A stretch of 64,000 bases of DNA from Acorus gramineus (taxonomy: Eukaryota; Streptophyta; Magnoliopsida; Acorales; Acoraceae). A program made the translations under genes and the position numbers. Each line of letters starts with the position of its first letter. Positions within the stretch are counted from its first letter, which is position 1. The notes under the pieces were generated by a model. It made no database searches, had not been told where the DNA came from, and saw only the letters and a list, made by a program, of their open reading frames with translations. The stretch is taken from the NCBI GenBank assembly GCA_030737835.1, contig CM060849.1:20568074-20632073 (forward strand). The letters run 5' to 3'. This document shows positions 17,124 through 42,985 of this stretch, one piece after another.

Positions 17124-19148
17124 ATGTCGTCAGCACTCATGTCGACAGCCGGAACAACCTACGTGGGTCTGAGACAGGCAACAAAGACCCCTCTTTTGGG
17201 TTGCGACAACAAGAGCAACTACAATCCTTGGACCCAAAAAACCGTCTCCAATGGGTCCAGGACTCACTGTATGAAGGTATGTATAGTGATCAGTGATCAG
17301 GATCTAAAAGAACTTCCTCTGGTTTTGGGTTTTGGGGATGATTTGTGTGCACGAACAGACGTGGAATCCGATCGACAATAAGAAGTTTGAGGCGCTGTCG
17401 TACCTTCCCCCTCTCACGGATGAGTCCATCGCGAAGGAGATCGATTACATGCTCTCCAAAGGGTGGATCCCCTGCTTGGAATTCGACGAGGTCTCTCTCT
17501 CTCTCTCTTGTTGTAGACTTGGAAGGCGATTGTCAAAATTGATTCTTCTTTTGTAAAATCAGTTTTCAGACCATTATATTCCAAACTACTATTTTTGAAA
17601 TCATTTTATTTTGAGGATGTGGGTTTCGGGAGATTGTAGTTATAAATGATCTAAAAATTACTGACAGTTTTTTTAAAAAGCTACGATTAGGCTTTAGGCC
17701 ACTTCCTATGCTACTTTTTCATAAAATCGGGTTTTTCAAACGGTGACATTTATGCATTAAACATCCAATAAAAAATTACTTGAGAATAGATTCCTACATA
17801 AAAGCTCTTTTTGAAAATTGATTTTAATGCACAGTTATTTTTGTAATTAATTTTGTAGTCCTAACTTTTTCTAATATTAAGGTAGAAATAAGAAAATAAT
17901 GTATGTATTTCATTTATTTGATATATAATTTTTTTTTTTACAGGTACCACAAAGTGATTAGATCATTATTATATGAATAATATCAGGGATAGTTCCACAA
18001 GACGATCCATATTTGATTTTAATGTTTAAAAATAGTAAAATTCATTTAATGAGATATATATTTTAAAATGAAAAAAAATGAATTGATTTTTAACTAACGT
18101 AAAAATATTTAACATGATATATAACTCACATAAGAAGATATATATCTCATATGACTTTAAAAGTACAGAGACTGTCCAACACGTTTGTGGTCGTTTGATC
18201 AATTCATCTCGAGATAAAATTTATGATTGAGATATTCTATTATATTTGAAAGTTCAAAAAAAATTCAATTAAATTTTTGTTCTTCCTTTATAGAATGCTT
18301 CTTAATTTTATCCATATTGAGTTGATATGATCGGACGGCTAGGAATAATTTGGATAATATGATTGTTCAATGCTCGTTGAATCCAACCCGATCTAAAAAA
18401 TACATGGACTACCCATGCCAACCTTGTCTTATGACACTGTAATAAAAATCTTTTTAAAGAAATGACTCCTCCTGCCCCTCATTTTTTCCTTTTCTCAATT
18501 CGATTTTGAATCGGAAGATCCACCAAATAAATCCCCCCATCTTGGTGAGAATGATGATTACCATTAAAAGAATAATAATAAAAAAAATAAATGTTAAGGA
18601 CAACCTGTGAACAGTCCCACGTACAGTCTCTACATATTTTAATTTTTTAAAATTAATAAATATTTTTTTTTTTAAGAATGAGTTAAGTGTATCTTTTGAT
18701 AAAAAGTTTATATAATTCTATTTTGAATTGAACGAATTTATTTTTACATATGCAAATTTTTTTTTTTATTGAGAGAGAGATACATGACTAACGAAATATA
18801 TAGAATTGTGTTTGATGCTGTAATAAGAATTGCATGCAACAACGCTCTAAAGAAAACCCCAATTTGAGTGGCTTTTTTTTTTTTTTTTTTGTGAACTGAT
18901 TGAAGGTGGGGCACGTGTACCGGACGAACAGCCGGATACCGGGATACTACGACGGGAGGTACTGGACGCTGTGGAAGCTGCCGATGTTCGGGTGCACGGA
19001 TCCGGCACAGGTCTTGAACGAGATCCAGGAGTGCAAGCAGGCGTACCCAAACACATACATCCGCTGCTTGGCCTTCAACAGCCAAAAGCAGGGCCAGTGC
19101 ATGTCCTTTGTCATCCAGAAACCCTCCTCTGCCTCCACCACCAACTAG
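17124..19148 (+). CDS. RBCS: Rubisco small subunit precursor (RBCS)
   Basis: Three exons, 17124-17276, 17359-17490 and 18906-19148, encode 175 residues. Introns fall at the two standard angiosperm RBCS positions. Residues 1-49 are a chloroplast transit peptide rich in Ser/Thr and poor in acids; the mature chain starts near Met50. Family landmarks: [31 protein letters not shown], the loop [48 protein letters not shown] and CMSFVIQKP. The product assembles with the plastid-encoded large subunit in the stroma for CO2 fixation. Oddities: the mature N-terminus reads [10 protein letters not shown] rather than the more usual MQVWPP type; intron 2 is 1,415 bp, unusually long; and a hAT-like element crowds the promoter. 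The frame is intact and looks functional, though expression could be unusual. Confidence 0.95.
18591..18848 (+). mobile_element. common MITE family copy in RBCS intron 2
   Basis: Starts near ATGTTAAGGACAACC, includes the CATATTTTAATTTTTTAAAA block and ACGAAATATATAGAATTG, and ends GCAACAACGCTCT just before the poly-T tract of the intron 2 acceptor. A second, more degraded copy may lie at about 17985-18185. Together they account for much of this intron's length. Confidence 0.6.
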
Positions 19149-19934
19149 CTTTGTTTTTTGCAAGGGAAGTTGGGTTTGAATAAGAAAAACAATGGGGGTG
19201 TCTCTGTCTTTTGTTTAGTCTTTAGTGTGGTTGTGTCGTTTAGTTCATATCATGTTTTGTGTTTTTTTTAGTGATAAAAATGGGTGAATGATTCACTCCA
19301 CTCTGTTTTGCTTGACTTTTTGCTTGTGACTCAGCACGTTGTTTATGCAAACCATGGGAGTTTGTTTTGTCAGTGGATGTTTTTTTTTTTTTTTTTCTTG
19401 GGTTGACATGGTAATTTGTTTTCTTGATTGCTTTTACATGGTCTTTCAGGGTCCCTTTAAAAATACATATTGAAAAGTAGTTTTTAAAATAAAGTTTTTT
19501 TTTAATATTATTTTAGATCTTCACTTTTATTGTGATACTTTTTTTAATTTAGGAATCAATATTCGAAAGCAGTTGATGTTTGGCAGATAAAGTTGTTTTT
19601 CAATTCAAAAAATCAATTCCAACAAAAAAACATTGTTTCTGAGTTTTTCAAAACACGGATTTCGAAAGAAAAATTAAAAAGAATCCATCTCCCGATTCTG
19701 AATAAAGCAACCCAGTTTGGTTGCACGATTTTAGCTTTTCAGCTTTTCAAAAATCAAAAGCTGCCCTAAACGTGCAATCAAAAATCAAACGGGGCCTAGT
19801 CTCATGTATCTTAATAAAACTTCCATTGATTATTATAGTGACACACATGTCTTATTAAAATATTTTACGATATATCATTCTATAAATAATATCATTCAAT
19901 TCATTGAATAAGTATATATTTCTTATTTTATAAA
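19149..19934. other. RBCS 3' UTR and spacer with a short Tourist-like remnant
   Basis: The first 200 bp are probably RBCS 3' UTR. At about 19707-19798, CAGTTTGGTTGCACGATTTT faces AATCAAAAATCAAACGGGGCC in inverted orientation, like a shortened Harbinger MITE. No gene seen. Confidence 0.4.
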
Positions 19935-21312
19935 AGTGCATATGAGTTATATGATTTTTTTAAAAAAAACAAAAATATGGGTGGACTGTATTTTGGACTA
20001 TAAAGTAAATTGAGTGTAATATTTTCTTTTTAGCTTGCGCCATAGTTCATTAACTTTGGAGGGTGGTAGATTTCTTAGTATCTCCTCCTACTATTCAATA
20101 TTAGTATAATGTTAGAGACAACCTAAATGCAATCCCATCAATAGTTTTAAAATAATAAATTTCATCTAATGCGATATATGTTTTAATGAAAAAATATCTT
20201 TTTAACTCTTAACAAATAGTGAAATTAGATAAAGAGAGTTTAAAAGGCTCAACTAGTACTATTACACTCTTACACGCATGGCACTTTGGCTAAATTTAAC
20301 AGCTTTCAACAAAGAGCATTATTATACTAAGTTCATTTTATAATCAAAATACGATCTCATATATTTCATTTATTCCTTTCACTCACTATAACGTGATATA
20401 AATCTCGTTGGAAAATTTTTACACTTTTTTTTATTTATATATGATATCGTCCAATTGGTTGGAATATATATTTTATCTTTTATAAAAACACATATTTCAT
20501 TAGAAGAAATATATGATTTAAATAAAAATAAAAATATAGATGTACTGCATTTAAATTGAAAATGAGACTGAGTGTAATATTTTTTCATCGACAAAATCTC
20601 CAATAGTTAAAAGAGATCATTTCGACTGAACTAAACAACAGATGTCCCCCAGCTCTCCCTGAGGCCTGAACTATCTCGACTCATTTCATGCTGTGTTGAC
20701 ATTTCAGAAAAAAATGATCAATTTGCAAAATTGAATGCACACATCTTCAATAGTAAATGGGTGCGTTCAAACATGATTTTATTTGACCCCAAAATGGAGT
20801 CCATGTGCCTCGTTAATCATCAAGCGAGGAAAATACTTCCTTATATAAGTGAGGTATATATATCTCTCCTTAATTTTTTTTACACTAAAAAATATTGAGT
20901 CTAATTAATTTCAAATTGAGTGATATATATTTTTCATCAAAATATATATATATATACCTAATTGAGATGATTTTTTTTTAATTAAAACATGTATGTAATG
21001 TCCGAGGGATTGCATATTTGCACTTCTTGTTGTACCTAACATTATTCGTGGTAATTATATATACAAGGGAAAAAAAATATTTTGACCGGTTAAAAATCTT
21101 ATTTTCTAGTCACATATTCAAACTTGGAATCCCATTGAATATGAAATCTAGACCAATATCCATACAATAAAAATGAGATTTCATTCTCCATTAAAATAAA
21201 AAATAAAACCCTTCATGCCTTGTATGACATCTACATAAACGCATTTACAATTCAAAGTATCATTAAAACAATAAATTCAAAGATCTTATTCCATTTTCAG
21301 AAAACGTAGCAT

Positions 21313-21320
21313 TATATAAA
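21313..21320 (+). promoter_or_regulatory. TATA box of defensin-like gene 1
   Basis: TATATAAA lies 90 bp upstream of the ATG, in sequence conserved in all four units. Confidence 0.65.
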
Positions 21321-21402
21321 TCCTTGAATGGGGCAGATCTCCTACAATCAAAAACGGTATTTTAAGTGATATAGAGATACATAGAGGGAGCATACAACAA
21401 AA

Positions 21403-21934
21403 ATGGCTAAGGCTGCATTGGCTTTGTTTTTCGTAGTGTGCGTGGTCATGAGTTCAGCAAGTAAGATATCTTTTTATTGTTAATCCATCTCACTCTTTCC
21501 GTATTTTTTATAATAAACATATGAAAAATGTTACGAAGAGTCTTCACGTGTTTTAATTTTTTTATAAATAATAAACATTGTCAAATAAATTATATGTTTT
21601 GACAAAAAATGTACACCATTCCATTTCGAATAAAATGAACTTATTTTTAGAAAATGTATACTTCATCTAAGGAGCTATATACATTGCTGGATGGCTAAAG
21701 ATTTATGTAGAACTGTATTTGATACTGTAAATAAGACTGTGTATAACAGCGCTCTAAACATATGTTACAGACCACGTGACGGCTCAAAATTGTTGTGCGG
21801 AGAACAAGATCGGCCCATGCCACCCTGACAAACCCGTTGAAGTGGCTCATTGTGACAAATTCTGCCAAAGTAACTGCAGGGGTGGGGAATGCAAGTTTAG
21901 AAATAATGAGTGGAATTGTCACTGTTATTGCTGA
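21403..21934 (+). CDS. defensin-like secreted cysteine-rich peptide, array copy 1
   Basis: Exons 21403-21460 and 21771-21934, one phase-1 intron (GCAA|GTAAGA ... TTACAG|ACC), 73 residues. Residues 1-24 form a signal peptide with core ALALFFVVCVVMSSA and likely cleavage in VTA|QNCC. The 49-residue mature chain has ten cysteines spaced C-C-x7-C-x10-C-x3-C-x3-C-x4-C-x8-C-x-C-x-C. The CX3C and CXC parts fit a cysteine-stabilised alpha-beta fold, and the intron just after the signal-peptide exon is the classic DEFL layout. Ten cysteines would allow five disulfides instead of the usual four. Such peptides are secreted antimicrobials or reproductive/cell-signalling ligands; which applies here cannot be read. 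It belongs to no subfamily I can name. Confidence 0.88.
21537..21755 (+). mobile_element. common MITE family copy filling the defensin-like intron
   Basis: Spans AATGTTACGAAGAG to TAACAGCGCTCT with the family's internal blocks, taking about 219 of the 310 intron bases. The same insertion is in the introns of all four array genes and, in diverged form, in the broken fifth copy. It therefore predates the duplications. The splice acceptor lies 15 bases beyond its end. Confidence 0.65.
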
Positions 21935-22449
21935 TCCATTCAGCACTACTTAAAATTGTGATGGATTATAATTGTAATAAACCGGTCATTGCAAAGTGGC
22001 CCATGAAAGAAATTGTTGTGATTGAGTAATGATAAAAATCAAAGTGGCTTTTTTGCGAATTAGTGATGATTTTTCTGTGCATCATTTTTTTTTCTTTTGT
22101 TGTTGCTACTGATTATTATAATTAGTGTAATGCCAATAATGTATCTTTGCCAATGCTCATCAAACAATGGATTTAGAATTTAGATGACATGGACCAAGCA
22201 TATTTGAGTCCAGGAGGTAGGTCCTTAATTATTCAGAAGTAAGATTTTAGATTTTATATATTTCGCCTTATGAAAAAGAATAAAAAGAGATTGCTCGGTT
22301 AACATTGAAGAAATAATGTTGTGAATCGAAATAGAGAAGAAGTAAGCCACACGTGATTTACGTGGTTTTAACAAAAGATTGACTACATCCATGAGGTGGA
22401 ACGATTTTTAGAAATTGCCAAATTTTTTTAAAATATGTTAAATTCAGAA

Positions 22450-22699
22450 ATTTTTTCAGTCTAAAATTCATACCACACATAATTTTTAATTTTTTTTAAA
22501 TAATAAAATTATTTAATGAGGTATATGCTTTAGTAAAAAATGTATATTGGTCCATTTCGAATTGAATGAACCAAATTTTAGTAAGTGTGAGAAAAAACAA
22601 TTTACCGGGGTATATATGTACATTATCCATGTTTCACTAGATTTCCAACGGGCAACTGCATTTTAGACTGTAAATTTTTTTTAATGTGACAACGCCGTT
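22450..22699 (+). mobile_element. common MITE family copy 3' of defensin-like gene 1
   Basis: Contains AAATAATAAAATTATTTAATG, ATGCTTTAGTAAAAAATG, GTCCATTTCGAATTGAATG, CACTAGATTTCCAACGG and the end GACAACGCCGTTT. It recurs at matching places in units 2 and 3. Confidence 0.6.
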
Positions 22700-22879
22700 T
22701 TCTTTTATAATAAAAAGTTACTATTACTACTGTGATTTCATTTATTGAATTCGTATGGACAAAATGTTATCATGCCTTTTAAAACAAGTTCCGTATATAA
22801 GTGATGTTATTCGAAGATGCATGAGGAAGAACTTTTTTATTATTTTTGTATAATAGCTTTGTTAATTAGGATATGACAT

Positions 22880-23295
22880 ATAATAGGACTCACAAAGGTT
22901 TTGGCCTAGGCAAATATTATCCTCCTCACATGCGCACGGACGATTCTCGAAAACTCTTCATTCTAGATATTTCTAGTGGTGTTTAAGAGGGAGTAGGATT
23001 TCCTTTGTTTTGGTAAGACTTCTTAAGAGTTATCCTAAAGAATTCGCTCAGTCCAGGTCTGGGGTTGCCTATGCGCGGGGGCCAGCCCAGTTCAGGTGGA
23101 GAGGAATTCGCTCCTCATTGCTCCGTAGGATGGAAGGATGGAGATCCGATGAATGCCTTTGTTAGATCTGTTAATTAGGCATTATTTAGATCCCCTCTCC
23201 TTGCTAATCCTCTATATTTTGTTTTCTAGGAACTTTACTCCTTTTATAATCAAAGAAGTGACATATTCACCCATTATCTTTTAAAAAAAAAAACA
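22880..23295. repeat. GC-richer block ending in poly-A, present in units 1-3
   Basis: This stretch (CACATGCGCACGGACG, GCCAGCCCAGTTCAGGTGG, then TTATCTTTT and a run of A) stands out from its AT-rich surroundings. It recurs at about 26848 and 30806. The A-run suggests a retroposed sequence such as the 3' end of a non-LTR element, but no A/B boxes or reverse-transcriptase frame were found, so it stays unclassified. Confidence 0.4.
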
Positions 23296-25278
23296 TGAGT
23301 TATCCTAAAAAAAAATGGTGAATTGCTCAAATGTGTTTATTAGACCAACTGCTTCGAATTTTTTTTTTTTGTCCTTGGAATTTTTTTCTTTACCCCTACA
23401 GTGGTGTCTAATTTTTTTTTTACCCTTGACATTTCATAATATATGAACTACACTTACAGACAAATTTACAGAAATACTAAAAATTTGATACATATAGTAA
23501 TTATACACATATATACATATATTTAATAGTTACCTACATAGAGCATTCAACATACACAAAGATGTTTAAAAACAAAATAGTTATGGATAAATTCCTAATG
23601 TCATTACAATGAATTCATAAATTGTAAGTCTTGTTATTTTATCATCTATAAGTGCATTCAACGTATATAAAATGATTATAGATACATTCCTAAAATTTCA
23701 TTAAAATAAATACATCAACTGCTTGAATAACGACATTGTTTTTCTCTCTTAATGGAATCAGATATTGTCTCCCACTTGATCCTCTTAATGTCCTCTTGGG
23801 TGAATTTGAACCCATTGTAATGTAATTACAAATTACAGAATTATACTTACAGAAATATACTATTCTCATTTTTTAAAAGTGTATATGAATTATATGATTT
23901 TTTTTTTAAATAAAAACATGGGCGGACTGCATTTTGGACTGTAAAGTAGATTGAGTGTAATATTTTCTTTTTAGCTTGTGCCACAGTACATCAACTTTGG
24001 AGGGTGGTAGATTCCTTAGTATCTCCTCCTACTATTCAACATTAGTATAATGTTACAGACATCCCTAAATGCAGTCCCATAGGTAGTCTTCACATGTTAA
24101 TTTGAATTTTTTAAAATAATAAACTTCATCTAATGTGGTATGTGTGTTAATAGAAAAATCTCATTTAACTCTTAATAAAGAGTGAAAAATTACAAAAAGA
24201 GAGTTTAAAAGGCTCAACTAGTACTATGACACTCTTACTACACGTATGGCAATTTGGCTAGATTTAGCAACTTTCAACAAAGAGCGTTGTTAGGCTCAGT
24301 TCATTTTATAAATCAAAATGCGATCTCATATATTTCATTTGCTCCTTTCACTCACTTAGCGAGATATAATTTTCATTGAAAAATTTGCACATTTTTTTTA
24401 TTCATAATGAATATATCGTCCAATTTGTTGGAATATATGTTTGATCTTTTATAAAAATACATATTTAATTAGATGAGATATATGATTTAAATAAAAATAT
24501 AGATGCACCGTATTCAAATTGGAAATGAGACTAAGTGTAATATTTTTTCATCAACAAAATCTCCAATAGTTAAAAGAGATCATTTCGGCTGATCTAAACA
24601 ACAGAGGCCTCCCAGCTCTCCTTGAGGCCTGAGCTATCTCGACTCATTTCAAGCTTTGTTGACGCTTCAGGAAAAAAATGATCAATTTGCAAAATTGATG
24701 GCATACATCTATCTTCAATAGTAAATGGGTGCGATCACACATGATTTTATTTGGCCCCAAAATGGAGTCCATGTGCCTCGTTAATCATGAAGCGAGGAAA
24801 ATACTTCCTTATATAAGTGAGGGATATATATCTCTCCATAATTTTTTTTACACTAAAAAATATTGAGTCTAATTAATTTCAAATTGAGTGATATATATTT
24901 TTCATCAAAATATATATATATACCTAATTGAGATGATTTTTTTTTAATTAAAACATGTATGTAATGTCCGAGGGATTGCATATTTGCACTTCTTGTTGTA
25001 CCTAACACTATTCATGGTAATTATATATACAAGGGAAAAAAAATATTTTGACCGGTTAAAAATCTTATTTTCTAGTCACATATTCAAACTTGGAATCCCA
25101 TTGAATATGAAATCTAGACCAATATCCATACAATAAAAATGAGATTTCATTCTCCATTAAAATAAAAAATAAAACCCTTCATGCCTTGTATGACATCTAC
25201 ATAAACGCATTTACAATTCAAAGTATCATTAAAACAATAAATTCAAAGATCTTATTCCATTTTCAGAAAACGTAGCAT

Positions 25279-25286
25279 TATATAAA
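25279..25286 (+). promoter_or_regulatory. TATA box of defensin-like gene 2
   Basis: TATATAAA, same place relative to the ATG as in unit 1. Confidence 0.65.
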
Positions 25287-25368
25287 TCCTTGAATGGGGC
25301 AGATCTTCTACAATCAAAAACGGTATTTTAAGTGATATACAGATACATAGAGGGAGCATACAACAAAA

Positions 25369-25900
25369 ATGGCTAAGGCTGCATTGGCTTTGTTTTTCGT
25401 AGTGTGCGTGGTCATGAGTTCAGCAAGTAAGATATCTTTTTATTGTTAATCTCTCTCACTCTTTCCGTATTTTTTATAATAAACATATGAAAAATGCTAC
25501 GAAGAGTCTTCACGTGTTTTAATTTTTTTATAAATAATAAACATTGTCAAATAAATTATATGTTTTGACAAAAAATGTACACCATTCCATTTCGAATAAA
25601 ATGAACTTATTTTTAGAAAATGTATACTTCATCTAAGGAGCTATATACATTGTTGGATGGCTAAAGATTTATGTAGAACTGTATTTGATACTGTAAATAA
25701 GACTGTGTATAACAGCGCTCTAAACATATGTTACAGACCACGTGACGGCTCAAAATTGTTGTGCGGAGAACAAGATCGGCCCATGCCACCCTGACAAACC
25801 CGTTGAAGTGGCTCATTGTGACAAATTCTGCCAAAGTAACTGCAGGGGTGGGGAATGCAAGTTTAGAAATAATGAGTGGAATTGTCACTGTTATTGCTGA
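25369..25900 (+). CDS. defensin-like secreted cysteine-rich peptide, array copy 2
   Basis: Exons 25369-25426 and 25737-25900. By eye both exons are base-for-base the same as copy 1, so the peptide is the same 73 residues with a signal peptide and ten cysteines. The intron is the same length as in copy 1 (310 nt) but differs at a few sites, for example CTCTCTCAC where copies 1 and 3 have CCATCTCAC. The leader carries C at 25340 where copies 1 and 3 have G. Identical coding with differing introns points to very recent origin, exchange, or purifying selection. Confidence 0.88.
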
Positions 25901-28900
25901 TCCATTCAGCACTACTTAAAATTGTGATGGATTATAATTGTAATAAACCGGTCATTGCAAAGTGGCCCGTGAAAGAAATTGTTGTGATTGAGTAATGATA
26001 AAAATCAAAGTGGCTTTTTTGCGAATTAGTGATGATTTTTCTGTGCATCATTTTTTTTTCTTTACTTGTTGCTACTGATTATTATAATTAGTGTAATGCC
26101 AATAATGTATCTTTGCCAATGCTCATCAAACAATGGATTTAGAATTTAGATGACATGGACCAAGCATATTTGAGTCCAGGAGGTAGGTCCTTAATTATTC
26201 AGAAGTAAGATTTTAGATTTTATATATTTCGCCTTATGAAAAAGAATAAAAAGAGATTGCTCGGTTAACATTGAAGAAATAATGTTGTGAATGGAAATAG
26301 AGAAGAAGTAAGCCACACGTGATTTACGTGGTTTTAACAAAAGATTGACTACATCCATGAGGTGGAACGATTTTTAGAAATTGCCAAATTTTTTTAAAAT
26401 ATGTTAAATTCAGAAATTTTTTCAGTCTAAAATTCATACCACACATAATTTTTAATTTTTTTTAAATAATAAAATTATTTAATGAGGTATATGCTTTAGT
26501 AAAAAATGTATATTGCTCCATTTCGAATTGAATGAACCAAATTTTAGTGAGTGTGAGAAAAAACAATTTACCGGGGTATATGTGTACATTATCCATGTTT
26601 CACTAGATTTCCAACGGGCAACTGCATTTTAGACTGTAAATTTTTTTTAATGTGACAACGCCGTTTTCTTTTATAATAAAAAGTTACTATTACTACTGTG
26701 ATTTCATTTATTGAATTCGTATGGACAAAATGTTATCATGCCTTTTAAAACAAGTTCCGTATATAAGTGATGTTATTCGAAGATGCACGAGGAAGAACTT
26801 TTTTATTATTTTTGTATAATAGCTTTGTTAATTAGGATATGACATATAATAGGACTCACAAAGGTTTTGGCCTAGGCAAATATTATCCTCCTCACATGCG
26901 CACGGACGATTCTCGAAAACTCTTCATTCTAGATATTTCTAGTGGTGTTTAAGAGGGAGTAGGATTTCCTTTGTTTTGGTAAGACTTCTTAAGAGTTATC
27001 CTAAAGAATTCACTCAGTCCAGGTCTGGGGTTGCCTATGCGCGGGGGCCAGCCCAGTTCAGGTGGAGAGGAATTCGCTCCTCATTGCTCCGTAGGATGGA
27101 AGGATGGAGATCCGATGAATGCCTTTGTTAGATCTGTTAATTAGGCATTATTTAGATCCCCTCTCCTTGCTAATCCTCTATATTTTGTTTTCTACGAACT
27201 GTACTCCTTTTATAATCAAAGAAGTGACAGATTCACCCATTATCATTTAAAAAAAAAAACATGAGTTATCCTAAAAAAAAAAGGTGAATTGCTCAAATGT
27301 GTTTATTAGACCAACAGCTTCGAATTTTTTTTTTGTCCTTGGAATTTTTTTCTTTACCCCTACAGTGGTGTCTAATTTTTTTTTACCCTTGACATTTCAT
27401 AATATATGAACTACACTTACAGACACATTTACAGAAATACTGAAAATTTGATACATATAGTAATTATACACATAGTTACATATATTTAATAGTTACCTAC
27501 ATAGAGCATTCAACATACACAAAGATGTTTAAAAACAAAATAGTTATAGATAAATTCCTAATGTCATTACAATGAATTCATAAATTGTAAGTCTTGTTAT
27601 TTTATCATCTATAAGTGCATTCAACGTATATAAAATGATTATAGATACATTCCTAAAATTTCATTAAAATAAATACATCAACTGCTTGAATAACGACATT
27701 GTTTTTCTCTCTTAATGGAATCAGCTATTGTCTCCCACTTGATCCTCTTAATGTCCTCTTGGGTGAATTTGAACCCACTGTAATGTAATTACAAATTACA
27801 GAATTATACTTACAGAAATATACTATTCTCATTTTTTAAAAGTGTATATGAATTATATGATTTTTTTTTTTAAATAACAACATGGGCGGACTGCATTTTG
27901 GACTGTAAAGTAGATTGAGTGTAATATTTTCTTTTTAGCTTGTGCCACAGTACATCAACTTTGGAGGGTGGTAGATTCCTTAGTATCTCCTCCTACTATT
28001 CAACATTAGTATAATGTTACAGACATCCCTAAATGCAGTCCCATAGGTAGTCTTCACATGTTAATTTGAATTTTTTAAAATAATAAACTTCATCTAATGT
28101 GGTATGTGTGTTAATAGAAAAATCTCATTTAACTCTTAATAAAGAGTGAAAAATTACAAAAAGAGAGTTTAAAAGGCTCAACTAGTACTATGACACTCTT
28201 ACTACACGTATGGCAATTTGGCTAGATTTAGCAACTTTCAACAAAGAGCGTTGTTAGGCTCAGTTCATTTTATAAATCAAAATGCGATCTCATATATTTC
28301 ATTTGCTCCTTTCACTCACTTAGCGAGATATAATTTTCATTGAAAAATTTGCACATTTTTTTTATTCATAATGAATATATCGTCCAATTTGTTGGAATAT
28401 ATGTTTGATCTTTTATAAAAATACATATTTAATTAGATGAGATATATGATTTAAATAAAAATATAGATGTACTGCATTTAAATTGAAAATGAGACTGAGT
28501 GTAATATTTTTTCATCAACAAAATCTCCAATAGTTAAAAGAGATCATTTCGGCTGATCTAAACAACAGAGGCCTCCCAGCTCTCCTTGAGGCCTGAGCTA
28601 TCTCGACTCATTTCAAGCTTTGTTGACGCTTCAGGAAAAAAATGATCAATTTGCAAAATTGATGGCATACATCTATCTTCAATAGTAAATGGGTGCGATC
28701 ACACATGATTTTATTTGGCCCCAAAATGGAGTCCATGTGCCTCGTTAATCATCAAGCGAGGAAAATACTTCCTTATATAAGTGAGGGATATATATCTCTC
28801 CATAATTTTTTTTACACTAAAAAATATTGAGTCTAATTAATTTCAAATTGAGTGATATATATTTTTCATCAAAATATATATATATACCTAATTGAGATGA

Positions 28901-29243
28901 TTTTTTTTTTAATTAAAACATGTATGTAATGTCCGAGGGATTGCATATTTGCACTTCTTGTTGTACCTAACATTATTCGTGGTAATTATATATACAAGGG
29001 AAAAAAAATATTTTGACCGGTTAAAAATCTTATTTTCTAGTCACATATTCAAACTTGGAATCCCATTGAATATGAAATCTAGACCAATATCCATACAATA
29101 AAAATGAGATTTCATTCTCCATTAAAATAAAAAATAAAACCCTTCATGCCTTGTATGACATCTACATAAACGCATTTACAATTCAAAGTATCATTAAAAC
29201 AATAAATTCAAAGATCTTATTCCATTTTCAGAAAACGTAGCAT

Positions 29244-29251
29244 TATATAAA
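29244..29251 (+). promoter_or_regulatory. TATA box of defensin-like gene 3
   Basis: TATATAAA, same place relative to the ATG as in unit 1. Confidence 0.65.
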
Positions 29252-29333
29252 TCCTTGAATGGGGCAGATCTCCTACAATCAAAAACGGTATTTTAAGTGA
29301 TATAGAGATACATAGAGGGAGCATACAACAAAA

Positions 29334-29853
29334 ATGGCTAAGGCTGCATTGGCTTTGTTTTTCGTAGTGTGCGTGGTCATGAGTTCAGCAAGTAAGATAT
29401 CTTTTTATTGTTAATCCATCTCACTCTTTCCGTATTTTTTATAATAAACATATGAAAAATGTTACGAAGAGTCTTCACGTGTTTTAATTTTTTTATAAAT
29501 AACAAACATTGTCAAATAAATTATATGTTTTGACAAAAAATGTACACCATTCCATTTCGAATAAAATGAACTTATTTTTAGAAAATGTATACTTCATCTA
29601 AGGAGCTATATACATTGCTGGATGGCTAAAGATTTATGTAGAACTGTATTTGATACTGTAAATAACAGCGCTCTAAACATATGTTACAGACCACGTGACG
29701 GCTCAAAATTGTTGTGCGGAGAACAAGATCGGCCCATGCCACCCTGACAAACCCGTTGAAGTGGCTCATTGTGACAAATTCTGCCAAAGTAACTGCAGGG
29801 GTGGGGAATGCAAGTTTAGAAATAATGAGTGGAATTGTCACTGTTATTGCTGA
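29334..29853 (+). CDS. defensin-like secreted cysteine-rich peptide, array copy 3
   Basis: Exons 29334-29391 and 29690-29853 encode the same 73-residue precursor as copies 1 and 2. The intron is 298 nt, 12 nt shorter than in copies 1 and 2, because AAATAACAGCGC replaces a longer AAATAAGACTGTGTATAACAG-type stretch near its 3' end; copy 4 shares this. The leader base at 29305 is G, as in copy 1. The splice sites and TATA box are unchanged, so it should be expressed like the others. Confidence 0.88.
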
Positions 29854-32800
29854 TCCATTCAGCACTACTTAAAATTGTGATGGATTATAATTGTAATAAA
29901 CCGGTCATTGCAAAGTGGCCCGTGAAAGAAATTGTTGTGATTGAGTAATGATAAAAATCAAAGTGGCTTTTTTGCGAATTAGTGATGATTTTTCTGTGCA
30001 TCATTTTTTTCTCTTTTGTTGTTGCTACTGATTATTATAATTAGTGTAATGCCAATAATGTATCTTTGCCAATGCTCATCAAACAATGGATTTAGAATTT
30101 AGATGACATGGACCAAGCATATTTGAGTCCAGGAGGTAGGTCCTTAATTATTCAGAAGTAAGATTTTAGATTTTATATATTTCGCCTTATGAAAAAGAAT
30201 AAAAAGAGATTGCTCGGTTAACATTGAAGAAATAATGTTGTGAATGGAAATAGAGAAGAAGTAAGCCGCACGTGATTTACGTGGTTTTAACAAAAGATTG
30301 ACTACATCCATGAGGTGGAACGATTTTTAGAAATTGCCAAATTTTTTTAAAATATGTTAAATTCAGAAATTTTTTCAGTCTAAAATTCATACCACACATA
30401 ATTTTTAATTTTTTTTAAATAATAAAATTATTTAATGAGGTATGTGCTTTAGTAAAAAATGTATATTGCTCCATTTCGAATTGAATGAACCAAATTTTAG
30501 TGAGTGTGAGAAAAAACAATTTACCGGGGTATATGTGTACATTATCCATGTTTCACTAGATTTCCAACGGGCAACTGCATTTTAGACTGTAATTTTTTTT
30601 AATGTGACAACACCATTTTCTTTTATAATAAAAAGTTACTATTACTACTGTGATTTCATTTATTGAATTCGTATGGACAAAATGTTATCATGCCTTTTAA
30701 AACAAGTTCCGTATATAAGTGATGTTATTCGAAGATGCACGAGGAAGAACTTTTTTATTATTTTTGTATAATAGCTTTGTTAATTAGGATATGACATATA
30801 ATAGGACTCACAAAGGTTTTGGCCTAGGCAAATATTATCCTCCTCACATGCGCACGGACGATTCTCGAAAACTCTTCATTCTAGATATTTCTAGTGGTGT
30901 TTAAGAGGGAGTTAGATTTCCTTTGTTTTGGTAAAACTTCTTAAGAGTTATCCTAAAGAATTCGCTCAGTCCAGGTTTGGGGTTGCCTATGCGCGGGGGC
31001 CAGCCCAGTTCAGGTGGAGAGGAATTCGCTCCTCATTGCTCCGTAGGATGGAAGGATGGAGATCCGATGAATGCCTTTGTTAGATCTGCTAATTAGGCAT
31101 TATTTAGATCCCCTCTCCTTGCTAATCCTCTGTATTTTGTTTTCTAAGAACTGTACTCCTTTTATAATCAAAGAAGTGACAGATTCACCCATTATCATTT
31201 AAAAAAAAAAACATGAGTTATCCTAAAAAAAAATGGTGAATTGCTCAAATGTGTTTATTAGACCAACTGCTTCGAATTTTTTTTTTTTGTCCTTGGAATT
31301 TTTTTCTTTACCCCTACAGTGGTGTCTAATTTTTTTTTTACCCTTGACATTTCATAATATATGAACTACACTTACAGACAAATTTACAGAAATACTAAAA
31401 ATTTGATACATATAGTAATTATACACATATATACATATATTTAATAGTTACCTACATAGAGCATTCAACATACACAAAGATGTTTAAAAACAAAATAGTT
31501 ATGGATAAATTCCTAATGTCATTACAATGAATTCATAAATTGTAAGTCTTGTTATTTTATCATCTATAAGTGCATTCAACGTATATAAAATGATTATAGA
31601 TACATTCCTAAAATTTCATTAAAATAAATACATCAACTGCTTGAATAACGACATTGTTTTTCTCTCTTAATGGAATCAGATATTGTCTCCCACTTGATCC
31701 TCTTAATGTCCTCTTGGGTGAATTTGAACCCATTGTAATGTAATTACAAATTACAGAATTATACTTACAGAAATATACTATTCTCATTTTTTAAAAGTGT
31801 ATATGAATTATATGATTTTTTTTTTTAAATAACAACATGGGCGGACTGCATTTTGGACTGTAAAGTAGATTGAGTGTAATATTTTCTTTTTAGCTTGTGC
31901 CACAGTACATCAACTTTGGAGGGTGGTAGATTCCTTAGTATCTCCTCCTACTATTCAACATTAGTATAATGTTACAGACATCCCTAAATGCAGTCCCATA
32001 GGTAGTCTTCACATGTTAATTTGAATTTTTTAAAATAATAAACTTCATCTAATGTGGTATGTGTGTTAATAGAAAAATCTCATTTAACTCTTAATAAAGA
32101 GTGAAAAATTACAAAAAGAGAGTTTAAAAGGCTCAACTAGTACTATGACACTCTTACTACACGTATGGCAATTTGGCTAGATTTAGCAACTTTCAACAAA
32201 GAGCGTTGTTAGGCTCAGTTCATTTTATAAATCAAAATGCGATCTCATATATTTCATTTGCTCCTTTCACTCACTTAGCGAGATATAATTTTCATTGGAA
32301 AATTTGCACATTTTTTTTATTCATAATGAATATATCGTCCAATTTGTTGGAATATATGTTTGATCTTATATAAAAAAAAATATTTAATTAGATGAGATAT
32401 ATGATTTAAATAAAAATATAGATGTACTGCATTTAAATTGAAAATGAGACTGAGTGTAATATTTTTTCATCGACAAAATCTCCAGCAGCTAAAGAGATCA
32501 TTTGGCTGAACTAAACAACAGATGTCCCCCAGCTCTCCCTGAGGCCTGAACTATCTCGACTCATTTCATGCTGTGTTGACATTTCAGGAAAAAAATGATC
32601 AATTTGCAAAATTGATTGCATACATCTTCAATAGTAAATGGGTGCGTTCAAACATGATTTTATTTGACCCCAAAATGGAGTCCATACGCCTCGTTAATCA
32701 TCAAGCGAGGAAAATACTTCCTTATATAAGTGAGGTATATATATCTCTCCATAATTTTTTTTACACTAAAAAATATTGAGTCTAATTAATTTCAAATTGA

Positions 32801-33191
32801 GTGATATATATTTTTCATCAAAATATATATATATACCTAATTGAGATGATTTTTTTTTTAATTAAAACATGTATGTAATGTCCGAGGGATTGCATATTTG
32901 CACATCTTGTTGTACCTAAAATTATTCATGGTAATTATATATACAAGGGAAAAAAAAAAATTGACCGGTTAAAAATCTTATTTTCTAGTCACATATCCAA
33001 ACTTGGAATCCCATTGAATATGAAATCTAGACCAATATCCATACAATAAAAATGAGATTTCATTCTCCATTAAAATAAAAAATAAAACCCTTCATGCCTT
33101 GTATGACATCTACATAAACGCATTTACAATTCAAAGTATCATTAAAACAATAAATTCAAAGATCTTATTCCATTTTCAGAAAACGTAGCAT

Positions 33192-33199
33192 TATATAAA
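33192..33199 (+). promoter_or_regulatory. TATA box of defensin-like gene 4
   Basis: TATATAAA, same place relative to the ATG as in unit 1. Confidence 0.65.
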
Positions 33200-33281
33200 T
33201 CCTTGAATGGGGCAGATCTCCTACAATCAAAAACGGTATTTTAAGTGATATACAGATACATAGAGGGAGCATACAACAAAA

Positions 33282-33801
33282 ATGGCTAAGGCTGCATTGG
33301 CTTTGTTTTTCGTAGTGTGCGTGGTCATGAGTTCAGCAAGTAAGATATCTTTTTATTGTTAATCTCTCTCACTCTTTCCGTATTTTTTATAATAAACATA
33401 TGAAAAATGTTACGAAGAGTCTTCACGTGTTTTAATTTTTTTATAAATAATAAACATTGTCAAATAAATTATATGTTTTGACAAAAAATGTACACCATTC
33501 CATTTCGAATAAAATGAACTTATTTTTAGAAAATGTATACTTCATCTAAGGAGCTATATACATTGCTGGATGGCTAAAGATTTATGTAGAACTGTATTTG
33601 AGACTGTAAATAACAGCGCTCTAAACATATGTTACAGACCACGTGACGGCTCAAAATTGTTGTGCGGAGAACAAGATCGGCCCATGCCACCCTGACAAAC
33701 CCGTTGAAGTGGCTCATTGTGACAAATTCTGCCAAAGTAACTGCAGGGGTGGGGAATGCAAGTTTAGAAATAATGAGTGGAATTGTCACTGTTATTGCTG
33801 A
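33282..33801 (+). CDS. defensin-like secreted cysteine-rich peptide, array copy 4
   Basis: Exons 33282-33339 and 33638-33801, the same precursor as the other three copies. The intron has the short form shared with copy 3, but the leader base at 33253 (C) and CTCTCTCAC in the intron agree with copy 2. The upstream block at 32510-32700 agrees instead with copy 1. The downstream flank matches the other units only to about 34195, making this the last unit of the array. Confidence 0.88.
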
Positions 33802-34305
33802 TCCATTCAGCACTACTTAAAATTGTGATGGATTATAATTGTAATAAACCGGTCATTGCAAAGTGGCCCGTGAAAGAAATTGTTGTGATTGAGTAATGAT
33901 AAAAATCAAAGTGGCTTTTTTGCGAATTAGTGATGATTTTTCTGTGCATCATTTTTTTTTTCTTTTGTTGTTGCTACTGATTATTATAATTAGTGTAATG
34001 CCAATAATGTATCTTTGCCAATGCTCATCAAACAATGGATTTAGAATTTAGATGACATGGACCAAGCATATTTGAGTCCAGGAGGTAGGTCCTTAATTAT
34101 TCAGAAGTAAGATTTTAGATTTTATATATTTCGCCTTATGAAAAAGAATAAAAAGAGATTGCTCAGTTAACATTGAAGAAATAATGTTGTGAATCGTAAT
34201 ACACATTCGTCCATTGAAATATACTATTATAAAATAGTGAAATACATACTAAAATGCATTGGTATATTTTTTCTAAATTAAAAAATAATGTTTTTTTTTT
34301 CATAA

Positions 34306-34364
34306 TATAAAATGTACTATCACAGTGTATAAATAATATAAAATGTACTATCACAGTGTATAAA
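34306..34364. repeat. short tandem duplication between array and fifth copy
   Basis: ATATAAAATGTACTATCACA with following GTGTATAAAT occurs twice in a row with a unit of about 30 bp. It lies in sequence not shared with the units. Confidence 0.7.
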
Positions 34365-34695
34365 TGGTTGAGATTTATGAACTATGGACACAAATATAAA
34401 ACAGATTAAATATATTAACACTCTATTCTAAACTCATAATAAACTTAACCCTATTTTATTGCTAGTATTCTAGAATGGAATAAATACAAGAAAGATTCAA
34501 ATTTGAAATCCCATTATGAAATCTCGACCAATCCCCGTATAATAAAAATGAGATTTCATTCTCCATTAAAAAAAAAAAAAAACCTTTATGCCTTGTATGG
34601 CATCTACATAATCACATTTACAAGTCAAACTGTCAAAGTATCATTAAAACAATAAATTCAGTGATCCTATCCCATTTTCAGGAAAAGTGGCATCA

Positions 34696-34703
34696 TATAT
34701 AAA
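34696..34703 (+). promoter_or_regulatory. TATA box of the decayed fifth copy
   Basis: TATATAAA, 90 bp upstream of the former ATG, in flank clearly homologous to the intact units but more diverged. Confidence 0.5.
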
Positions 34704-34870
34704 TCCCTGAATTGGGCAAATCTTCTACAATAAAAAATAGTATTTTGAGTGATATACAGATACACAGAGGGAGCAAACAATAAAAATGGCTAAGGCTGCA
34801 TTGACTTTGTTTTTTCATGAGTTCAGCAAGTAAGATATCTTGTCCTCTCATATTTTAATTTTTTAGAAAT

Positions 34871-34980
34871 TGTTAAAGAATTCCTTATCTGTATTTTAGG
34901 ATTTCCTTTATGTATCTATAAATAGAGCCCTTTGGCTCCTCTAATATAATAACAATAATTCCCTTTTCTTTATTCTAACA
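34871..34980 (+). mobile_element. solo mini-LTR (TRIM-like), 110 bp, 5-bp TSD
   Basis: Starts TGTTA and ends TAACA, flanked by a perfect 5-bp duplication GAAAT (34866-34870, 34981-34985). It has a TATA-like word TATAAATAGAG in the middle. Size and termini suit a single LTR left by a terminal-repeat retrotransposon in miniature. No internal region remains. It sits inside the MITE in the intron of the broken defensin-like copy, so the order was MITE first, then LTR element. The perfect duplication suggests moderate to young age. Confidence 0.8.
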
Positions 34981-35263
34981 GAAATAATAAACATCGTCTA
35001 ATGATATATAGGATTTGATGAAAATTATACATCACTCTATTTCAATTGAATAAACTCATTTTAGAAATATAATTTTTTTTTATCAATGTACATAATATAC
35101 ACTGGATGACTAATTTTGTAAATAAGACTGTAAATAAAACTGTGTGTAACAACATTCTAAACTTATGTCACAGGCTACGTGACGGCTCAAAAATGTTGTG
35201 CCAAGAATAAGATCGGGCCATGCCACCCTGACATTCCCAGACACCAGGCTCATTGCAATGGCT

Positions 35264-35736
35264 CACTACAAGAAAAACCATTTTTTGCGACGCTGTTTTT
35301 GCGACGGATGGCCAAAACCGTCGCAAATACTCATATCTTTGATTGTCTTTAGATTCATTTTGCTGCATGTCTTTTTAAAATCTTAAATAAATAAAAAAAA
35401 AAAACATTATTTGCGACGGTTTAGGTCTCTGTCGCAAAAGTCAAAAAATGAAAATAAAAATGTTTTTTGCGACAGCTAGTTTATCCGTCGCAAAATATGT
35501 AGTTTACACTACTAGAGTAAAAAGGAAGTTTTTGCGACGGATTATTTGCGACGGTAGCAAAACCGCTATAAAAGATATTTGCGACGGCTAAAAACCGCTG
35601 CTATTCTTTTGCGACGCCGTTTGGTACGACGGAACCCAAACCGCCGCAGAACCGTCGCAAAAGGGTATTTGCGACGGTTATAGAGGCTTTTTGCGACGGT
35701 TTCAAACCGTCGCAAAAAATGGTTTTTCTTGTAATG
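35264..35736. mobile_element. CACTA (En/Spm) MITE inserted in exon 2 of the broken copy, 473 bp
   Basis: Ends CACTACAAGAAAAACC and GGTTTTTCTTGTAATG are inverted repeats, flanked by the 3-bp duplication GCT (35261-35263, 35737-35739), as CACTA elements make. The word TTGCGACGG or its complement occurs about fifteen times in both orientations, the dense subterminal motif typical of transposase-binding sites in this superfamily. The first 32 bases of each end pair almost perfectly, so the insertion is fairly young. It is not in any of the four intact copies. Confidence 0.92.
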
Positions 35737-35819
35737 GCTTCTGCCAACCACACTGTAGGGGTGGGGAATGCAAGTTTAGAAAGAACGAGTGGAATTGTCA
35801 TTGCTATTGCTGATCAATT

Positions 35820-36848
35820 CGGCACTACTTAAAATTGTGTCCGACTTGAAATTGATTATATGTAATAAACCGATCATTACAGAGATATCCATGATATTGG
35901 TGTGATTGAATAATGATAATAAGCAAGTGGTTTTTTTGCAAAATAGTGATGAATTATCTTGGCCTCATTTTTTTATTTTGTTGTTATTTTTAGTGAAATG
36001 TGGTCATTTATTATACGGTTTTTTTCTAGCCTCAATTCCAGTCTATACTTAATTTGAATTTTTAAAAATAATATACATAATCTAATGAGGTACATGCATT
36101 TTATAATAAATGAAGTATATATTCCAATGAATTAATTGCATTGAAACATTTATAGAAAATGTGAAAAATTTCTATCAAAACATATGCCTCATGTCCTCAT
36201 TATTCTCAGTTTCAAGGGGACTTAAATTAGGCAGTGGTGACAAGAGCAGCAAGGTGAAATATAGAGCTAATACACAGTCTTTTTTGCTACCCCATATACT
36301 ATAGTAGCACAATAAATATCTTAGTGTATAACAAAAAAATTTCATTTTTTAAAGTAAAAAAAAATACAATATTGTATCTTAGTATATATACTTTATTTTA
36401 TAATATAACAACATATACTTCAATTAAAGAGTATATGATTTTTTTTAAAAAAATAAAAAATTATGTGGAGACTGCACTTGAGAGACGTATCATTTTACAG
36501 TGAGATATTGTATTTTTTTTTGGTTATATGTTTATGTTGAATCAAATCCTCTGTCTAAGCTTGTCAGCGGAGCGGAAACGGATGAGGGAGGCCCATATGA
36601 GGGTCATCATATGGCCCGCAGCCCGAACGCTGGGCCAAGCCAAGCCTAATTCAGGGGACCAGGCCTGACCCATGGGCTCATGGGAAACCCACTCACAAGA
36701 GGGGCAAGTGCCATCAATTTAAAAAAAGCGGGACAGGTGTTGTCCCGTTGGAGCGGGGGATTCCCCATCCCTCAAATGTTTTTTTGGGCCCATAGGGTTG
36801 TCCCATGGACCAAAGCCAGGGCCAGACCTTAACCTATTTTTTTAAAAA
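35820..36848. other. spacer with repeat remnants
   Basis: A likely degraded MITE-family copy at 36050-36185 and a GC-richer stretch at 36590-36840 rich in GGGCC/GGCCC words, which resembles the ends of the hAT element at 10674 but lacks readable ends. No gene seen. Confidence 0.35.
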
Positions 36849-37121
36849 ATGTTAGACTCAGTCGCGTTCACCTACTAAAATTCAGACCTCACGTGTTTTT
36901 ATTTTTTTTTAAATAGTAAACATAATCTAATGAGATATATACTTTGATAAAAAGTGCATATCGCTTCATTTCGAGTTGAATAAACTCATTTTTAATGAGT
37001 GTAAAAAAAATTTTAATGTGATACATACAACATCTAAGGAGGTATATGCTTCACTGGATTTCTAACATGGTATATAGGACTGTGGTTTGGATTGAGAAAA
37101 AAATTGAGTGTAACAGCACTA
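36849..37121 (+). mobile_element. common MITE family copy, near full length
   Basis: From ATGTTAGACTCAGTCGC to GAGTGTAACAGCACT. Within it are CAGACCTCACGTG, AATCTAATGAGATATATAC, GCTTCATTTCGAGTTGAAT, TAAGGAGGTATATGC and ATTTCTAACATGG. The ends show a short imperfect inverted repeat, GTTAGACTCA against TGAGTGTAAC. One of the best copies for defining the family. Confidence 0.65.
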
Positions 37122-37757: not shown

Positions 37758-38028
37758 AGAGTGTTGTTACACTCAATTTTTTTCTTAGTTCAAAATACAA
37801 TCCTATGCATCTTGTTAGAAATCCAGTGGAGTATATACCTCATTAGATGTTGTTTGTACCTCATTAAATATTTCCTTACACTTATTAAAAATGGGTTCAT
37901 TCAATGCAAAATATATTTATTTTTTTATCAAAACATATACTTTATTAAATGATGTTTACTATTCTTTTAAAAATAAAAATATATGTAGTCTAAGTTTTAG
38001 TTAGTAAAACAAACGGAGTCTTTAACAT
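37758..38028 (-). mobile_element. common MITE family copy, reverse orientation
   Basis: Begins AGAGTGTTGTTACACTCAA, the reverse complement of the family's 3' end, and ends near GAGTCTTTAACATTT. Internal order matches 36849-37121 reversed. About 640 bp separate the two copies. Confidence 0.65.
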
Positions 38029-40657: not shown

Positions 40658-42985
40658 TCATTCCATTCCAAAAATGGGTGTCTGAAACACTGATAGATTC
40701 TGCTTTGATGACTGGAATGAATGAATTGTGGGGGAAACCCAGCTTCCATAGACAGGACTTTCATAACTGCTGCTGCTGCTATTCCCAACTGTTATGGGCA
40801 TTGCAAATGGGATGCTCGAGTTCTGCTGCTGTTGCTGCTGTTGTACAATCCCACCATCGCTCATGAACACATCTCCACCACTTTGGGTACCGTTTTGGGT
40901 CACAGTGGCTGTGGCGAAGTCCATGTTAAGGCTTGTTGTTGTGAATCCATGGAACCCATTGTTGTGGTTTTGGTAGGCCATGAGTGAGGGCCAGTAGTCC
41001 TGGAACTGATCGTGCTTGATTGGGACGGCGAAGGACGCCGCGGAGAAATCTTGGTCGTTGATTGTCATGGGACGAGGCGTATCGGACGATGAGGAGGAGT
41101 CCGAGTGTGCGGCGGCGATGGCTCTGGATTTGGAGGAGGTGGTGGTGGTTGCTCCGCCGATGGGGAGGTTGCTGTTGGCTATGCTTTGGACGTCGTATCG
41201 GCTCATGTCGAAGTTCGTGACGGCGTTCAGTCCCCGGAACTTGATCGCCGCGATGTCGTAGGCCTCCGCCGCCTCTTCTTGGGTGCCTTCAATGAAATCT
41301 CAGTTAAACAGTGAACACCCAAAACAATGCGCCTTATTACACCCGTTTTACAGTCTCATATACATCATTAACAATTCATATATCATTGGTTAAGTTACAT
41401 AACTTGATAATTTTTTATTTATTAAAAATAAAGTAAAATATAATTTTCATATAATTAAATATGTCGTTCAACGAGATTTATTACTATTTTAAAAAAATTA
41501 AAACATAGCGTTATCCTTTGTTATTTGAACTGAAAAGAAGGAATCCAAATTAAGCTTACTGAATGTTCCCAAGTAGAGATCTTTGTTGCCTGCGACCCTC
41601 CCAATCCGAGCTTGCCATCGACCATGTTGATGATGCCTGAGAACCCAAAATGGATTGAAAACTAAATGAGTGACCATCGGAAAACAAATATAAAAAAAAT
41701 GTATTTTGGAATTTGTAAAGTTGAAAAACCTTGTCACCCCTCTATAAATGGAAGCTCCTCTAGAGAACCCACTGCTCTTCCTGTTCATCATCACATGCAA
41801 AATCAATACAATACAACCAAATTCAAAAATACAAGTTCACAGTACTTTCATTATATATTACCTCCGGAGAGAAGCAACGAATTCCTGCCTAGTCATGGTT
41901 TTCATATCCTCCAACTCTTTTTCATAGTTCCCAACCTTTTTTTTGATGAAAAACAAATTATCATCTTTAGTACTTCATTTACTATTCAAAAACGCCAACT
42001 TTGCTTCAAATTTCAAAATATGGAGGAAGAAAAAAAACAACATACAGGAAAGTTGGTGGTGGTGGTTGGTCCCCAATACTTCAACGCCGCAAGATCATAT
42101 GCTCTCGCCGCCTTCTCCTCTTTATCATACCCACCTATTTTTTTAGACCCAAATAATCAATATAAACTATTTATCCTCAACAAAAAAATATTAATAAATT
42201 CAACAAAAAAAAAAAAAAAAACTTACCCAGATAAACTGAGATAACCCCCAACAATCATTCACCAAGCACAACCAAAAAAAAAAAACCATGTTAGAAAAAA
42301 TATATATATCTACCAATATTTTCAAAATATAATTTAAATAATAATAATAAAAAAAACCTTGTCTGCCTTTCCGACTTTGCCCTTCTCTTCTACAACTGTT
42401 ATCCCACAAATGTGCTTCATATCTCCCCGTCCATCTGTGCCTGCTCTCACACAAACACAAAACACAGACTGCAAAATATTAATTCATCCATGCATTTCCG
42501 ATTCTACCCTCACCAACCCACGATAAATTACCTCGTCACCCCTCTATAGATCGACGTCCTCTGCCCAAACGTGTCCGCCGCCTTCTTCGAAACCGACGAC
42601 TCCCCCGCCGTCGCCGCAACCGCTGCCTTCGACTCCGTCTCCGCCGGGCACCCACGAAAGAACCCGGCGGCGATCGACTTCAGTTCGGAGTCATAGATCA
42701 TCCCGCCCTCCGGCTCCGCCGCCGCCACGGATCCGCCGCCGCCGCCTCCAAAGAAGTCTTCCAGTTTCGGACCTCCGTTTAGCATGGACAGATCCGCCGC
42801 CACCCCATCTCCTTCAACTCTCTCTCCTGTCAAAAAAAAAAAAAAAACCATAAAAAACAAAAACAAACACAAATGCAGCTTTTAAGGGTTTTAGAGAGAG
42901 AACCGTTGGAGGAGTTGAAGGGGTCGAGGAAGGAGTGGTGATTGGAGAGGGAGAAGGCGAGCCAGTTGTGGGTGGTGGTGTCCAT
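40658..42985 (-). CDS. AIL5: AINTEGUMENTA-like AP2 transcription factor, AIL5/PLT5 type
   Basis: Nine coding exons on the minus strand: 42904-42985, 42532-42826, 42358-42440, 42227-42235, 42046-42134, 41862-41935, 41730-41780, 41560-41636, 40658-41286; 462 residues, frame intact. Exon 4 is a 9-nt microexon encoding VYL, as in other ANT/AIL genes. NWLAFSLSN opens the protein; PKLEDFFGG and [11 protein letters not shown] are euANT/AIL5 motifs. AP2 repeat 1 spans about residues 119-186 ([20 protein letters not shown], then [15 protein letters not shown]) and repeat 2 about 221-280 ([19 protein letters not shown]), joined by the conserved linker [16 protein letters not shown]. The C-terminus has seven consecutive Gln (402-408) and ends [13 protein letters not shown], close to Arabidopsis AIL5 (PLT5/CHOTTO1). 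It acts in the nucleus in organ, root and embryo/seed programmes. Confidence 0.95.
41331..41514 (-). mobile_element. probable degraded MITE-family copy in AIL5 intron 8
   Basis: In reverse orientation: GCCTTATTACACCCG, then ACAGTCTCATATACATC, TTAACAATTCATATATC and, at the far end, TTAAAACATAGCGTTATCC. It occupies most of the last intron. More diverged than the other copies, so only tentative. Confidence 0.45.

Follow-up and report, generated by a model that had tools for sequence, protein, structure and literature searches.

A tandem array of four defensin-like genes with identical coding sequences in Acorus gramineus, and evidence for sequence exchange between its repeat units

Four intact defensin-like (DEFL) genes with one and the same coding sequence lie head to tail in a 64,000-nucleotide stretch of the Acorus gramineus genome (the window, C3:20568074-20632073, in an assembly of 398.6 Mb and 137 contigs), and the repeat units that carry them are mosaics, sequence having been exchanged between copies since their origin. 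We consider it likely, with a probability of roughly 0.75, that this is a locally amplified array homogenised by recombination, all copies of which are transcribed, so that the dose of a peptide with a somewhat favored signalling role is raised.

Self-BLAST places the homology span of the array at 19920-34201. An earlier sequence-only reading of the window had given limits of 19935-34195, which are close, but the span holds ~3.6 units and not four complete ones, since the 3' spacer is missing from unit 4. The spacing stated in that reading is borne out by the start codons, which lie at 21403, 25369, 29334 and 33282, i.e., at intervals of 3,966, 3,965 and 3,948 bp, and repeat finding over 15-40 kb of the window recovered repeat families at the expected spacing. 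The longest exact matches in the six unit pairs measure 260-601 bp, far above chance. The units, as delimited by self-BLAST and unit alignment, and the genes within them are as follows.

19920-23862, plus strand: repeat unit 1, of which the first ~735 alignment columns are ~12% diverged from units 2-4
23863-27825, plus strand: repeat unit 2
27826-31780, plus strand: repeat unit 3
31781-34201, plus strand: repeat unit 4, partial, without the 3' spacer
21313-21321, plus strand: TATA box TATATAAAT of gene 1, 90 bp before the ATG (also at 25279, 29244 and 33192)
21403-21460, plus strand: gene 1 exon 1, signal-peptide exon
21771-21934, plus strand: gene 1 exon 2, mature ten-cysteine peptide and stop codon (PF10868, E 2.3e-07 for the spliced protein)
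25369-25426, plus strand: gene 2 exon 1
25737-25900, plus strand: gene 2 exon 2
29334-29391, plus strand: gene 3 exon 1
29690-29853, plus strand: gene 3 exon 2
33282-33339, plus strand: gene 4 exon 1
33638-33801, plus strand: gene 4 exon 2

All four genes have a coding sequence of 222 bp including the stop codon, a GTAAGA donor, a TTACAG acceptor and a phase 1 intron, and their spliced product is the 73-residue MAKAALALFFVVCVVMSSANHVTAQNCCAENKIGPCHPDKPVEVAHCDKFCQSNCRGGECKFRNNEWNCHCYC. Exon 1 is 58 nt long, and the mature peptide is encoded entirely within exon 2. Such a layout of two exons, with the intron in the signal-peptide region, is typical of DEFL genes. That both exons are identical in all four copies and that each unit has a TATA box, as had been read from the sequence, hold in full, since none of the 222 coding columns varies and TATATAAAT is identical in 4/4 units.

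The earlier four-gene account can be extended by a fifth, older copy to the right of the array, in which a start similar to those of the array genes is found at 34786.

34495-35985, plus strand: fifth copy, a pseudogene, about 73% identical to the array upstream of an insert and 78-79% downstream of it
35264-35736, plus strand: CACTA-like insert of 473 bp that splits exon 2 of the fifth copy, with GCT on both sides

The fifth copy is a pseudogene, broken by this insert and by a 14-bp deletion that leaves its signal exon 14 bp shorter than that of the array genes. The insert has the ends CACTACAAG...CTTGTAATG, and we take its CACTACAAGAAA terminus to be the signature of a CACTA element; it is also rich in TTTGCGACGG motifs.

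Relatives are few among the best candidates scored in our genome searches, although more family members are possible given this scope. A protein search of the assembly, made with a query that carried one wrong residue, returned eight matches, viz., the four array genes, two pieces of the fifth copy, and one match each on C8 and C4. A search with PF10868 returned nine matches at E <=1 (four array genes, C8, one piece of the fifth copy, two on C4 and one on C10), of which the second C4 match lies just at the 25.1-bit cut-off and the C10 match below it. Outside the array region, the cut-off is thus passed by one intact relative on C8 (L009 4476-5469), whose cysteine spacing is identical to that of the array peptide, and by a diverged tandem pair on C4 (L010). 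The members of this pair are ~2.3 kb apart with a dS of 0.12, and they are more distant relatives of the array than the C8 gene. The dS and the matching stretches of ~80% identity speak against the C4 pair being another homogenised array, an idea we therefore dropped. The core promoter is also shared with the C8 gene, to which ~80 bp around the TATA box can be aligned with a score reached by 0/1000 mononucleotide shuffles; the alignment of one C4 gene's promoter to that of the array or C8 was not above shuffles (613 and 895/1000 as good).

The array peptide matches the Pfam Defensin_like family (PF10868) with 31.9 bits against the curated cut-off of 25.1 (E 2.3e-07). The earlier description of a tandem plant DEFL array encoding one ten-cysteine peptide, probably secreted, was right. 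The precursor has a hydrophobic N-terminus, followed by a 49-residue mature peptide with ten cysteines (both N-terminus and cleavage site judged by eye), and is probably secreted. Its cysteines are spaced C-C-x7-C-x10-C-x3-C-x3-C-x4-C-x8-C-x-C-x-C, which includes the CxxxC, GxC and CxC (CSab-type) motifs, and an alignment of four distinct family genes shows the ten cysteines and the GG and CHC motifs to be invariant. As a small, cysteine-rich and probably secreted peptide with CSab-type motifs, it resembles the plant DEFL/LCR/PCP-A peptides (PF10868; pollen-coat DEFL/LCR proteins, PMC9856046). Its own ten-cysteine spacing sets it apart, and we place it at the level of PF10868 and not in a subgroup. 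A single-sequence structure model has the order strand-helix-strand-strand (E-H-E-E; pLDDT 69.0, pTM 0.47). Structural comparison of this model with the PDB gave 105 matches at E <=10, the best with E 0.094 and none at <=0.001; the first five, all weak, are the plant defensins or antimicrobial proteins Ah-AMP1, OsAFP1, ZmD32, PsDef2 and TPP3, a designed mini-protein ranks sixth, and unrelated proteins occur among later rows. Searching the PDB by sequence returned a single weak match to a plant protein (1bk8, E 0.11), alongside two unrelated entries.

The net charge (K+R-D-E) of the array peptide is 0, as compared to +5 for the C8 peptide and +4 and +4 for the C4 pair, and the two pieces of the fifth copy have charges of +3 and +2 versus -1 and +1 in the matching pieces of the array peptide. 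Since the peptides of the fifth copy, C8 and C4 are all more positive, positive charge was likely lost in the array lineage. Because of this predicted loss, we slightly favor a role in signalling or recognition, which in this superfamily is often reproductive, over membrane-active antifungal action, against which the charge would argue no more than mildly. The alternative of a classical antifungal defensin whose gene was amplified to counter pathogens draws on the description of PF10868 as 'Cysteine-rich antifungal protein 2, defensin-like' and on the plant antimicrobial proteins and defensins that are the best, though weak, PDB matches of the array peptide; we consider it possible though unlikely, given a net charge of 0 against +4 to +5 in three relatives and given that DEFL genes, as far as the available text of the source goes, are expressed mostly in reproductive tissues in Arabidopsis, though mostly in nodules in Medicago (PMC3601123).

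Strong purifying selection acting on the peptide, rather than recombination, might also be the main reason why the coding sequences are identical. Variable sites number 0/222 in the coding sequence versus 22/1,162 in the flanks (p 0.021), and other choices of flank give 22/1,222 (p 0.025) and, when narrower, 13/866 (p 0.051), so that coding identity weakly exceeds what the flanks would lead one to expect. Comparison of an array gene with the C8 gene (dN 0.25, dS 0.94, dN/dS about 0.27) likewise suggests a purifying trend. However, introns and spacers are also ~99% identical and the similarity is therefore mostly not specific to the coding sequence, which leaves selection as an improbable main cause.

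Alignment of the units with MAFFT, in which variable columns were listed from column 550 on and then tested, reveals a sharp step in divergence. Over columns 0-735, unit 1 differs from units 2-4 by 11.6-12.4%, whereas units 2-4 differ mutually by 0.96-2.07%. Across a transition zone (columns 640-970) the difference varies between pairs from 2.1 to 8.6%, and in columns 971 to 2450, the gene zone, all six pairs differ by 0.34-1.03%; in the spacer the difference is 1.18-1.38% in the three pairs. About 12 indel events were counted among the units by eye. The sequence-only reading had the same introns and flanks in all units, and this holds for the most part, with the exception of the left edge of unit 1 and of 12 bp in the intron that are present in units 1-2 and missing in units 3-4. 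The 12%-diverged left edge implies that the repeat of this segment long predates the ~1% divergence of the rest. With approximate substitution rates, the edge would date very roughly to ~5-10 My and the rest to 0.1-1 My.

The variable sites fall into conflicting blocks: 15 sites at columns 740-970 group units 1+4 against 2+3, four sites at columns 1164-1603 group 1+3 against 2+4, and nine sites at columns 3433-3932 group 1+3 against 2. Along the 23 two-against-two sites the pattern switches only three times (as few or fewer in 11/10,000 permutations), and along 27 three-copy sites eight times (as few in 0/10,000). The two-against-two clustering is partly due to the diverged edge, but an exchange is required for the very drop from 12% to 1%. 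Such clustering of incompatible site patterns points to recombination between copies, and the units are thus mosaics. The earlier proposal of a recent amplification or an ongoing homogenisation was therefore right as to recent homogenisation; its either/or falls with the older edge. A single very recent amplification, in which one founder unit gave rise to four without later exchange and all differences are new mutations, would account for the 0.3-1.4% by which most of each unit differs, but we regard it as very unlikely because the ~12% divergence of the left edge of unit 1 stands against it, as do the permutations and the three conflicting blocks, which are impossible on one tree. An assembly artefact, with haplotypes or read errors laid out as false tandem copies, is highly improbable, for although near-identical arrays are prone to assembly error, the substitutions are dispersed (48 transitions and 33 transversions among two-state columns, counted from 640 onward) and every unit has sites private to it, unit 1 is 12% diverged at its left edge, the array is adjoined by an older, decayed copy, and among the matches listed, for which the best candidates on the 137 contigs were scored, there is no stray near-identical copy elsewhere.

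Our preferred reading of a recombination-homogenised array can be extended by the repeats at the unit joints.

19834-20030, plus strand: dispersed MITE-like element that runs unbroken through the left array end
21544-21755, plus strand: stretch of intron 1 resembling a dispersed repeat, at the same place in every unit
23309-23851, plus strand: 3' spacer, a high-copy dispersed repeat of ~540 bp that ends just before the unit joint in units 1-3

For the spacer repeat, 37 of the 42 matches listed are copies elsewhere in the genome at 74-80% identity (best 40 of 3010 candidates scored), and for the intron 1 stretch (query 458-709), 36 of 43 matches listed lie outside the array, the fifth copy and the C8 gene (best 40 of 620 candidates scored). 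The left part of the unit has 47/52 matches listed outside the array and the fifth copy, and 46 of these 47 fall in query 1-110 or 414-697, which are pieces of another dispersed element; between the pieces (query ~110-414) the only match listed outside the units is one of 42 bp on C4 (E 5.2e-4). At the left array end, matches from each of 12 fetched loci, a non-independent sample picked for matching the MITE-like element, run across position 19920. At the first joint, nine of the 12 match and only two (L022 and L024) extend left of 23863. As the matches cross 19920 and mostly stop at 23863, the first joint cuts an element of which the left array end has an intact copy. The comparison covers the first joint, with which the joints at 27826 and 31781 align. 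At the unit joints, then, the ~540-bp dispersed repeat meets what the matches indicate is a truncated dispersed element. Matches to the dispersed element found in the array units are also overlapped by the two arms of an inverted repeat further to the right in the window (36968-37120 and 37760-37912; 153 nt, 82% complementary).

Based on these patterns, we infer a recent re-amplification and homogenisation of an older duplicate via unequal crossing over and/or gene conversion. An older local duplication would have come first, with the diverged left edge of unit 1 as its relic. Re-amplification by unequal pairing may then have been aided by the dispersed repeats, as the positions of the joints suggest. 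Crossing over and gene conversion would subsequently have homogenised the interior, from which the outer edge of unit 1 escaped, and all four copies, if transcribed, would jointly increase the dosage of a single extracellular peptide. No spacer is present at the right array end (34201), where a simple duplication model thus has to assume an additional deletion or rearrangement.

The array fits the known picture of tandem DEFL clusters with pseudogenes and is ordinary in kind. The earlier statement that plant DEFL genes often expand in tandem agrees with the AtLURE1/CRP810_1 cluster of Arabidopsis thaliana which, in the available portion of its description, comprises species-specific tandem DEFL genes and a pseudogene, 80-95% identical to the other copies, an arrangement that the authors tentatively ascribe to duplication and/or gene conversion (PMC3525529). 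The present array similarly has a pseudogene alongside, but its four coding sequences are identical, unlike the AtLURE1 copies, of which one has a changed cysteine (PMC3525529, same portion). The likeness is one of cluster layout, and we claim neither kinship to CRP810 nor membership among pollen-tube attractants. A lineage-specific, charge-neutralised ten-cysteine DEFL signal, for example in pollination, with its dose raised by an array that repeat-assisted recombination keeps identical and whose copy number varies between individuals, would be LURE1-like with one ligand fixed; we hold this to be quite improbable. If true, homogenisation would fix one exact ligand rather than diversify it.

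In the HMA4 triplication of Arabidopsis halleri, too, tandem plant genes that are nearly identical undergo ectopic gene conversion, together with an effect on dosage; the gene encodes a transporter, however, and in the accessible part of that work the case for dosage and selection is built on expression and population data, whereas here they are inferred (PMC3749932). As far as the available texts go, Arabidopsis DEFLs show fewer recombination events than NLRs (PMC5731061), and in pear whole-genome duplication is named as the main source of CRP expansion, tandem duplicates being over-represented in clusters (PMC5557327). A literature search on PF10868 found no papers, and further searches listed none that, judged by titles and the starts of abstracts, could be tied to the array gene.

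With its identical coding sequences, a decayed fifth copy and an unlinked relative on C8, the array offers a place to ask about amplification for dose, and also how dispersed repeats seed and maintain arrays. Most discussion of DEFL clusters treats them as sources of diversity. The unit-specific SNPs and the 12-bp intron indel allow copy-resolved genotyping, and telling the transcripts apart needs a variant outside the identical coding sequence, such as those at unit 1 positions 21374 (5' leader) and 22003 (3' region), provided that these are transcribed.

A few other features of the window may be mentioned. On the minus strand, open frames with SIYRGVTR stretches at 40658-42881 presumably resemble AP2/AINTEGUMENTA-type factors; a Pfam scan of two of these frames gave no match. 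Pieces of a protein kinase gene (PF07714/PF00069) are present at 6965-7740, also on the minus strand. Just right of the array end, a sequence of ~30 bp is directly repeated once (34303-34362, offset 31). Upstream of the array, at ~18905-19148, there is a RuBisCO small-subunit-like 3' exon (PF00101, E 9.1e-14, for a 49-residue piece), which is of a divergent type as judged by eye.
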